33,590 nucleotides of DNA. Source: Sphaerochaetaceae bacterium. Its GTDB lineage: Bacteria > Spirochaetota > Spirochaetia > Sphaerochaetales > Sphaerochaetaceae. This document shows, one piece after another, positions 1,741 through 3,937 of the stretch; positions within the stretch are counted from its first letter, which is position 1, and each line of letters starts with the position of its first letter. Below the pieces are notes generated by a model that worked only from the letters and a program-made list of their open reading frames with translations, was not told the origin of the DNA and made no database searches. The stretch spans positions 1 to 33,590 of the forward strand of contig JAIKXP010000016.1 of NCBI GenBank assembly GCA_024684115.1, written 5' to 3'. The position numbers were made by a program, and so were the translations under genes.

Positions 1741-2841
1741 TTATTTATAAATGAAGTCGCCCGGGTTAAGAGGCACACCGTCCAGTTCGATCCTGAAGAA
1801 AATGGCTGGATAGTCGAGTAAAGTATTGTTTTCCTTAACTGTTCCTATAACCTCACCTGCTGAAACTCTCTGGCTTACGGTAATGTTGATTGAGGAAAGG
1901 CAGTTAATGAATGAGGTATAGCCTCCGGCATGTGAGAACTTAACTGCATAGGTTCCGTTCTGGTTAATCTGAATGTCTACTACTGTTCCACCAAGGACTG
2001 ATTTGACAGGTGAACCGGCTACACATTTAAGAATCACTCCATCAAGAACAGTACTTTCTCCGGTAAGAGGATCAGTAAATGACTGATTGAAAAGGCCTGT
2101 AATCTCAGCAACATCTACAGGCATGTAGAAACTCAGAAGCTCTGATGATGATTTATCAGAAGTTGAAACATAATATTCGTCTGAAGGTATGAAAAGTCTG
2201 GTACCTACAACAAGCTCATCTGAAGAGAGACTGTTAAGGACCATAAGGGTTTTAGGAGAAATCTTAAGTAAGAGCTTTGAAATAACTGACTCAAGTGTAT
2301 CTCCTTCCTGGACTGTATATACAGAGCCGTTTCTGTCAGGGATTATCAGTATATCTCCCTCTTCTATCGACCTTCTTATACTGTTTACGGCATAGATGGT
2401 CTTAATTGAAATACCGTAAGAAGCTGCTATCTGTGCAACGGATTCCCCTGCTTTTACTGTGTGTTCATAATAGACAACGGGAGTTATTTCTGTCTGTGAA
2501 TCCTGCTTTGATTCTGAAAGGGAAAGAGCTACGGCCGGTACTGCAGGTTCTGCAGGAACAACGGCCTTACTGCTGCCTTCACTTACGGCAAAGTCACTCT
2601 TGACTTCAGGCATTTCAAAGTAAGTATCACTTGTTGTAACTGTTGTAACGGTTTCAGGCTGAACTGTTTCAGTCTTCTCTTTTGCAGTCGATTCTGATGA
2701 TGGTTTGATAGATGTCCAGACAAGAACAGCTCCGATACAGATCAGGATTGCAAGCAGTATAAATGCAAGCACAAGCCTTGATGAACCGCGCGGGTTGTAT
2801 CCGGAGTCTACATCTGAATAATCATCATAATCTCTTCCCAT
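1741..2841 (-). CDS. Membrane-anchored LysM and degenerate LytM (M23-like) protein
   Basis: This is an envelope protein with a short acidic cytoplasmic N-terminus, one transmembrane helix (about residues 22-43), a Ser/Thr/Glu-rich periplasmic linker, two LysM-type glycan-binding repeats (about 127-169 and 173-219) and a C-terminal LytM/M23 beta domain (about 240-366). The domain fold cues are clear (GSPVKSVLGGTV, RVSAGEVIGTV, GVPLNPGDFI). The zinc ligands of active M23 enzymes are missing: the HxxxD position reads LDGVI, and the HxH position reads AIF. It is therefore more like EnvC/NlpD-type amidase activators than a hydrolase. ATG at 2841 is chosen; a TTG at 2859 would add six residues, and neither has a strong ribosome site. 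It is divergent from the PBP-like gene. Confidence 0.8.
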   Translation of the reverse strand: MGRDYDDYSDVDSGYNPRGSSRLVLAFILLAILICIGAVLVWTSIKPSSESTAKEKTETVQPETVTTVTTSDTYFEMPEVKSDFAVSEGSSKAVVPAEPAVPAVALSLSESKQDSQTEITPVVYYEHTVKAGESVAQIAASYGISIKTIYAVNSIRRSIEEGDILIIPDRNGSVYTVQEGDTLESVISKLLLKISPKTLMVLNSLSSDELVVGTRLFIPSDEYYVSTSDKSSSELLSFYMPVDVAEITGLFNQSFTDPLTGESTVLDGVILKCVAGSPVKSVLGGTVVDIQINQNGTYAVKFSHAGGYTSFINCLSSINITVSQRVSAGEVIGTVKENNTLLDYPAIFFRIELDGVPLNPGDFIYK

Positions 2842-2887
2842 TCCAAAAACACTCGACAATTAATGTAATAAAAATAATAATAAAATT

Positions 2888-3937
2888 ATGTCATCTTCAA
2901 CGCAAAAAAGCAATATAGGGACATTTCTCATGGGGCTGTCCATAGTGGCTGTTCTGGCTCTTGTCGTACTTGCCATGTATGATGTTTTCTCAGGAGAAAT
3001 GAGGAGTGGTAAATATATAGATCCTCAGGTTGCAGAAAAAACCGTAGAAGGAACCATATATGACAGAGAAGGAAGAGCTCTTGCCATTGAGGTTCCTGTT
3101 TATGAAATCTATATAAATCTGGAGAAGATAGACAACACCCAGCTTGAACTGCTCGCTCAGACAATAGGACTCTATACCGGAGAATCCATGGCTTCAATTC
3201 TGGCAAAGTGTAATCAGTCAGAGTCCATGCTTGTATACATTTCTTCCGTAGAAGATGAAAGTGAGTATCTGAGGATTATGGATGCCGTATCTTCCTACTC
3301 CCTTGAGGGCTTTGTACAGACTAAAAAAGGCTCAGAAAGAATCTATCCGGCACAGTTCCATATGGCCCAGCTCATCCTTGAGGTTGAAGACGTTTTCTAT
3401 GACGTTCTGAACCCGAGGCCGGCTTTTGATTCTCAGATAACATATGGAAATGACATAAGCCTTACCCTTGATCTTGATATACAGTATTTTTCAGACCTTG
3501 CAGTACAGAAGGTCTACAGCCTTCAGAATCCTGAGCTTGCAGTCTGTTTTATCTACGACTGTAATACTTCAAGGATTCTCGGGCTCAGTACATATCCATT
3601 CTACGACATAAACACAACTTCAACTGGCATGAAGAATTATGCCTATCTTTCATCCTTTACTTATGAAGGAAAGCAGTACAACGCCTCAGTAATTATGGAT
3701 AGTGAACTATCCGGGCAGTTTAACTCTGCTCATCAGGATACTCAGTTCATAAAAGATCTTTTCAGCAAGTACAGCGAAAAGCATTCAAGCTGCATAGTAA
3801 GAAAGGTCAAGGGTTCATCCAGTGAGTATATTCTCTTCGTAGCAAGCCTTAATCCAAGGATTAATACAGGAAAAGAGGCTGTTGAGGAAGCTGTAAAGAT
3901 TATTGAAGACGGCCTTGTAGCCCAGTCAAAGATTTAA
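2888..3937 (+). CDS. Shortened penicillin-binding-protein-like (FtsI/PBP2-type) membrane protein without active site
   Basis: The protein has a single N-terminal transmembrane helix (about residues 16-35), then elements of the class B PBP pedestal: EGTIYDREGRALA (54-66, as in RGxIxDRxGxxLA), RIYP (151-154), DISLTLDLDIQ (189-199), a DCNTSRILGLSTYPFYDIN stretch (224-242, as in DPxTGxILAMxxxPxFDPN). Only about 107 residues follow, where a transpeptidase domain of about 300 is expected. No SxxK, SxN or KTG triad is visible; RKVKGSSSEYILFVASLNP (305-323) may be the remnant of the KTG strand. At 349 residues it is well short of FtsI (about 570-600). No ribosome site precedes the ATG at 2888; ATG at 2930, with AGGGA upstream, is an alternative. 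It probably has a structural or regulatory role in wall synthesis (inference). Confidence 0.72.
   Translation: MSSSTQKSNIGTFLMGLSIVAVLALVVLAMYDVFSGEMRSGKYIDPQVAEKTVEGTIYDREGRALAIEVPVYEIYINLEKIDNTQLELLAQTIGLYTGESMASILAKCNQSESMLVYISSVEDESEYLRIMDAVSSYSLEGFVQTKKGSERIYPAQFHMAQLILEVEDVFYDVLNPRPAFDSQITYGNDISLTLDLDIQYFSDLAVQKVYSLQNPELAVCFIYDCNTSRILGLSTYPFYDINTTSTGMKNYAYLSSFTYEGKQYNASVIMDSELSGQFNSAHQDTQFIKDLFSKYSEKHSSCIVRKVKGSSSEYILFVASLNPRINTGKEAVEEAVKIIEDGLVAQSKI

Follow-up and report, generated by a model that had tools for sequence, protein, structure and literature searches.

In wall-less members of the Sphaerochaetaceae, the division proteins FtsQ, FtsL, FtsW, and FtsI (FtsQLWI) probably form a noncatalytic scaffold in a division that is based on FtsZ and proceeds without a cell wall, a function that we infer from sequence. 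Loss of the catalytic sites, retention of the partner proteins, purifying selection, and independent repetition of the same outcome were all computed from the genomes. The gene at the center of this analysis lies in a stretch of 33,590 nucleotides (here called the window), which is contig C95 of G000, a Sphaerochaetaceae MAG of 1.58 Mb in 142 contigs that is 93% complete. Its nearest named records were MAGs from the rumen and the horse gut that carry the label Sphaerochaetaceae, Spirochaetales, or Sphaerochaeta sp., and by these relatives the organism belongs to the Sphaerochaetaceae, not to the Treponema setting assumed in a first-pass annotation made from the sequence alone. For comparison, 119 genomes of the family, MAGs among them, were searched with several queries.

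A reduced FtsI and its divergent LysM/LytM neighbor

By its alignments, the plus-strand protein of the pair listed in Table 1 is a descendant of FtsI and not a transpeptidase. It scored 26.3 bits against PBP_dimer (PF03717; curated cutoff of 24.4), matched FtsI and PBP2 chains of the PDB in a profile search, and gave no match to the transpeptidase family PF00905 in Pfam. The membrane anchor and pedestal of a class B PBP, which the first-pass annotation had read from the letters, were thus both recovered, the former as a modeled helix. The same annotation had seen no SxxK, SxN, or KTG in this protein, and the alignment bore it out: all these positions are absent from the window protein, the motifs are missing in 22/22 aligned wall-less FtsI proteins, and they are kept by each of the eight aligned relatives in which PF00905 was matched. 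Columns invariant across wall-less and wall-making relatives are found both in the pedestal (G55, D59, L65, A66, and R151) and in the N-terminal transpeptidase piece (Q199, Y200, and D203).

The roughly 107 residues counted earlier after the pedestal are related to a transpeptidase, as the first ~60 and the last ~50 residues align with the start and the end of the transpeptidase domain, and it is the segment between these two pieces, active site included, that is missing. In the AlphaFold2 model (mean pLDDT of 79, pTM of 0.62), the N-terminal piece folds into a helix (residues 196 to 213) and two strands (217 to 224 and 229 to 236), and the C-terminal piece into two strands (302 to 308 and 313 to 321) and a helix (330 to 345). 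The model resembles class B PBPs with query-based TM-scores of <0.5, the pieces being short and their relative placement uncertain. A tRNA-Met called by ARAGORN inside ftsI (window positions 3609 to 3700, minus strand) had no Rfam support and was taken as spurious.

Table 1 Features of the divergent gene pair, in positions of the window
Feature	Position	Strand	Basis
LysM/LytM protein: TM segment, two LysM repeats, degenerate LytM domain	1741..2841	-	366 aa from ATG 2841; Pfam
Two LysM repeats, residues ~130-225 counted from TTG 2859	2185..2472	-	LysM, E 2.6e-20, two stretches
Degenerate LytM/M23 domain, residues ~246-370 counted from TTG 2859	1750..2124	-	Peptidase_M23, E 2.6e-14
Divergent intergenic gap, 46 bases	2842..2887	.	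Start picked from alignments of relatives
Pseudo-FtsI, class B PBP without catalytic motifs	2888..3937	+	349 aa; PBP_dimer match
Pseudo-FtsI membrane anchor helix, residues 7-34	2906..2989	+	AlphaFold2 helix 7-34; hydrophobic by eye
Pseudo-FtsI pedestal, residues ~51-178, with conserved GTIYDRxGRxLA and RxYP motifs	3038..3421	+	PBP_dimer on residues 55-163
N-terminal transpeptidase-sheet piece, residues 185-242: LTxDLDIQY helix and two strands	3440..3613	+	Aligns with E. coli FtsI 232-285
C-terminal transpeptidase-sheet piece and last helix, residues 300-349	3785..3934	+	Aligns with end of intact relatives

That a genome has a single SEDS protein and a single homologue of FtsI suggests pseudo-FtsI as the partner of the former. 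As the first family match was PBP2/MrdA, an identity as part of a RodA/PBP2 elongasome was considered and set aside in favor of the divisome because the SEDS gene sits beside ftsA and ftsZ; MreC, found in 0/119 genomes, and MreB proper, found only in g3 and g18 genomes (genera are designated g1 to g18 here), also speak against it. Several of these g3 and g18 genomes carry a tandem triple mreB (e.g., L110, G002:C1:255274-258349).

On the minus strand, the open reading frame tool had placed the start at the TTG at 2859, but the likely start is ATG 2841, which was chosen because relatives align from query residue 6 or 7. The 46-base gap given by the first-pass annotation follows from this choice, and both frames of the divergent pair were found where it had put them. 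A TM scan (one segment), Pfam, and alignment agree with its description of this protein as a TM segment, two LysM repeats, and a LytM fold devoid of zinc ligands. By the zinc-ligand criterion, the protein would not be an M23 metallopeptidase. Its LytM model matched the LytM domain of EnvC (4bh5) with a TM-score by target of 0.86 and an rmsd of 2.1, and dN/dS values indicate that the gene is under selection in the wall-less genomes. LysM domains usually bind peptidoglycan or chitin. The alignment recovered none of the zinc ligands in the window protein and none in wall-making relatives. Because the ligands are missing in wall-making genera too, the inactivation of LytM is, on this comparison, older than the loss of the wall and ancestral to the family, which rules it out as a part of that loss.

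Peptidoglycan gene loss and the retained division proteins

The wall-less set comprised 53 genomes of genera g1 (the window's own), g7, g8, g9, g11, g13, g14, and g17, and was drawn by genus after the pattern had been seen, leaving 66 others. The wall genes covered were PF00905, MurG, the Mur ligases, Amidase_3 (PF01520), and murF and mraY in the division cluster. There was no PF00905 match in the whole G000 genome nor in any of the 53 wall-less genomes. Seven of the 66 others also had none, five of them incomplete-looking or unusual and the remaining two being G056 and G072 (see below). Mur ligase matches numbered 0 to 2 in wall-less genomes (usually one weak match, presumably FolC) versus 4 to 6 in most others, and MurG gave strong matches in the other genomes and only weak ones in the wall-less set. 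Amidase_3, the only amidase family covered, was found in 0/53 wall-less genomes, G000 included, versus 65/66 others. Finally, murF and mraY stand between ftsL and ftsW at nearly all other loci, and at every one of those that span this interval, and at no wall-less locus. Because the transpeptidase, MurG, the usual Mur ligases, the amidase, and the murF-mraY pair of the cluster are gone together, these 53 genomes appear, by gene content, to have lost peptidoglycan.

A typical wall-making genome has exactly one PF00905 and one SEDS protein. Sphaerochaeta reportedly lacks PBPs (a 2012 mBio paper), a statement that plays no part in the argument here. The single transpeptidase counted for S. coccoides (PMC4423922) agrees with the single PF00905 match of most wall-making genomes here. 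There was one strong Mur ligase match (5.9e-47; G063:C62:3437-4000) in an otherwise wall-less g8 genome that is 80% complete with 4% contamination, and perhaps it is a contaminant or another ligase. Another outlier was G005 (g6), a genome of 3.9 Mb called 86% complete, with three Mur ligases and an amidase and no SEDS, FtsZ, PF00905, or FtsI match, which would make it an incomplete or misplaced genome.

Within the wall-less set, the reduced FtsI was found in 47/53 genomes, a SEDS protein in 48/53, and FtsZ in 51/53. Over the whole family, the FtsI homologue occurs in 108/119 genomes and the LytM homologue in 107/119, mostly as divergent neighbors, so that the pair is not the isolated, recently decayed one that the first-pass annotation had named as grounds for abandoning its reading. 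Every FtsI and SEDS match had an open frame without internal stops. With a simple Nei-Gojobori calculation on genome pairs, leaving out those with saturated dS, dN/dS of FtsI was 0.08 to 0.12 in g1 and g8 pairs, 0.13 in a g17 pair, and 0.12 in a wall-making pair, and dN/dS of FtsW was 0.03 to 0.06 in g1 and g8 pairs and 0.14 in a g9 pair. Both dead enzymes are thus under strong purifying selection. The wide occurrence of the pair in the family and a dN/dS of about 0.1 exclude chance or recent decay.

On a contig of G000 separate from the window (C78), the division cluster reads mraZ, rsmH, ftsL, ftsW, ftsQ, ftsA, ftsZ. FtsQ (POTRA_1), FtsA, and FtsZ were confirmed by Pfam, FtsL was assigned by its position, single TM segment, and similarity to the FtsL of relatives, and the C-terminal peptide of FtsZ is like that of relatives. 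The FtsW of this cluster has the FTSW_RODA_SPOVE domain (E of 1.3e-25) and is without the catalytic Asp (D297 in E. coli) and the ECL2/ECL4 residues: it has P at position 297 and E at 243 and 246, and the ECL2 segment is missing. Positions R137, W138, Q147, R246, D297, G380, and G381 (E. coli numbering) are kept in all 25 wall-making FtsW proteins examined, and substitutions at most of them abolish function in E. coli (PMC8765783). In wall-less FtsW, ECL2 and most key residues are gone, D297 as well in g1, g8, g9, and g13; some g17 proteins still have D297 and have lost ECL2 and the arginines.

The pattern of what was kept is different. TM1 of FtsW (positions 55 to 69) retains eight of eight conserved positions in both loss lineages, and the ECL4 stretch 265 to 279 around M269-A270 is kept to 80% and 100% in the two, compared with 0 to 25% for ECL2. 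M269 and A270 correspond to sites where FtsW meets the pedestal of FtsI (PMC8078798), and FtsL touches TM1 of FtsW and, on FtsI, the pedestal plus two parts of the transpeptidase domain (PMC7614612). The dominant-negative forms of E. coli FtsW described in PMC8765783 still bind FtsI. Interface positions are E. coli and P. aeruginosa sites carried over by alignment. We take the two transpeptidase parts contacted by FtsL to be the pieces kept here, with assumed offsets between P. aeruginosa and E. coli numbering. The conserved parts of the dead FtsI and FtsW would then be the ones through which, in solved divisomes, the two proteins touch FtsL and one another, and the lost parts the catalytic ones.

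Erosion has gone further in some genera. In L120 (G006, g7) and in L121 and L038 (G010, g11), FtsI and FtsW are heavily eroded, with FtsQ, FtsL, FtsA, and FtsZ still detected. Neither FtsI nor FtsW was found in g14, where L192 (G030) and L193 (G043) have FtsA and FtsZ that are very divergent, as in a further stage of reduction. Because g14 keeps neither protein, the scaffold is, judged by gene content, dispensable in at least this one lineage.

Number and order of the losses

In a tree of RsmH, FtsA, and FtsZ, g17 falls beside the wall-making g12, and g1, g8, g9, g11, and g13 lie elsewhere; g7 and g14 are too long-branched for placement. Forcing all wall-less rows into one clade was 144 log units worse (AU test, P of 3.6e-59), a test chosen after the tree had been seen and based on three genes from one cluster. 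The same two groups are separate in a tree of RsmH only, although its g17-g12 interior is not cleanly resolved. A single loss is ruled out by the AU test and the RsmH-only split, and the trees point to at least two independent wall losses, with the same protein set retained after each.

Two g12 genomes, G056 and G072, are likely intermediates. They have Mur ligases, MurG, and the amidase, and no PF00905 match. Their only FtsI (G056:C30, L221; G072:C102, L222) is an open frame of 474 to 480 aa in which SxxK and KTG are replaced and the SxN segment is missing. FtsW was looked at in G056 only, where it keeps every key residue, and the cluster of this genome keeps murF and mraY. These genomes suggest that transpeptidase activity can be lost first, and they might possibly make peptidoglycan without a D,D-transpeptidase. 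The two inactivations of the pair do not belong to one event: the ancestral loss of the LytM ligands is an earlier, separate event, and the FtsI truncation came later, its transpeptidase probably being lost with the wall or just before it.

Possible roles and comparison with known systems

The wall-less Sphaerochaetaceae would still divide by an FtsZ-based machine in which FtsQ, FtsL, FtsW, and FtsI, the core of the septal synthase in the membrane, are retained as a noncatalytic scaffold, the polymerase sites of FtsW and the transpeptidase of FtsI having been lost and the regions that join the members of the complex kept. The window gene would be this reduced FtsI, and the LysM/LytM protein an older noncatalytic LytM factor kept alongside it. 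If it assembles at the septum, FtsQLWI may link FtsA-FtsZ at the inner membrane with partners in the periplasm or the outer membrane and thereby let the layers of the envelope constrict together; alternatively, it may stabilize the Z ring or signal to it, and membrane coupling, Z ring stability, and signaling are all possible as the nature of its job. A job of FtsQLWI without its chemistry, and one that selection preserves, is the most economical reading, and the first-pass suggestion of a noncatalytic scaffold stands as the best account of the FtsI remnant, with its sites lost and the pair conserved. A bolder version, which we hold to be somewhat less likely than its opposite, is that FtsQLWI has a probably ancestral, wall-independent structural role that is masked by the enzymatic one in walled bacteria; here it would be the sole coupler of FtsA-FtsZ to the envelope, with the LysM/LytM protein on another envelope ligand.

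FtsW and FtsI could instead have been repurposed for another lipid-linked glycan, the former as enzyme or transporter and the latter as its regulator. The tighter constraint on FtsW than on FtsI would suit this, as would the persistence of the FtsW TM core and of the GG/GK motifs of ECL4, and the weak GT28-like matches in some wall-less genomes. We consider it unlikely, given that ECL2, the polymerization arginines, and the aspartate were lost differently in each lineage, unlike in a moved active site, and that the gene order of the division cluster is unchanged. Persistence of a thin or altered peptidoglycan, made by unrecognized enzymes and still regulated by the complex, is a more doubtful proposal. 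Its room comes from the retained LysM domains and from gene searches that spanned part of the pathway, but transpeptidases, MurG, amidases, the cluster MraY and MurF, and the Mur ligases beyond one weak match are jointly absent, even in genomes called 99% complete (G016). Marginally less probable again is that the genes are relics in slow decay, held for now by their embedding in the division operon: the loss of both in g14 and the advanced erosion in g7 and g11 are what it predicts, but all matches are open frames with no internal stops, dN/dS is near 0.1 or below, the pattern spans two independent lineages with genus-level diversity, and FtsI, alone and 10 kb off the cluster, is kept nonetheless. 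The other first-pass proposal, in which the pair activates amidases or regulates the growth of the wall at the septum or in the flagellar zone, has next to no prospect. The LytM fold does resemble that of EnvC, and an activator role is plausible in wall-making relatives, where a single amidase occurs along with the same degenerate LytM neighbor, but it is practically impossible in G000, which has no Amidase_3, no MurG, and none of the other wall-synthesis genes searched beyond one weak Mur ligase match.

In walled bacteria, removing FtsW or FtsI stops wall synthesis, and a role outside the wall is therefore hard to probe. Here, at least two lineages would have been stripped of the chemistry by evolution and left with the proteins under strong selection, which makes a nonenzymatic role directly testable; the wall-less lineages mark the segments that would carry it, and the intermediates suggest an order of loss. 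The findings also hint that diderm bacteria free of peptidoglycan live in animal guts, which would bear on beta-lactam insensitivity in this community. We found no description of retained dead FtsW or FtsI in wall-less relatives in open-access PMC full text, a collection outside which most subscription papers fall.

The closest counterpart is FtsWIQBL of E. coli and P. aeruginosa, which is alike in FtsQ, FtsL, FtsW, FtsI, the cluster context of FtsA and FtsZ, and the contact segments. Unlike in that complex, both enzymes here are devoid of catalytic residues, FtsI has lost the greater part of its transpeptidase domain, the genome searches turned up no substrate pathway, and FtsB is not among the proteins identified. 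The LysM/LytM protein shares with degenerate LytM factors of the EnvC/NlpD type a TM or coiled N terminus, a LytM fold without ligands, and a division context; it differs from them in having LysM repeats, in being divergent from ftsI, and in persisting in a genome where the cognate Amidase_3 of such activators is absent. In C. difficile, a class B PBP aids septum formation without its catalytic activity, although, unlike here, that bacterium makes peptidoglycan with PBP1 and can dispense with FtsQ, FtsL, and FtsB (PMC12539705). Among wall-less bacteria, the division cluster of Mycoplasma genitalium consists of mraZ, mraW, MG_223, and ftsZ (PMC8475190), and that of Dehalococcoidales/SAR202 of mraZ, mraW, ftsA, and ftsZ (PMC10608941, PMC11994032). 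As far as these sources describe them, both resemble the present case in that the mur genes are gone and mraZ, mraW (rsmH), and ftsZ are kept, and both have lost FtsW and FtsI, as g14 has, whereas the other wall-less Sphaerochaetaceae kept FtsL, FtsW, FtsQ, and FtsI through what would be at least two losses of the wall.
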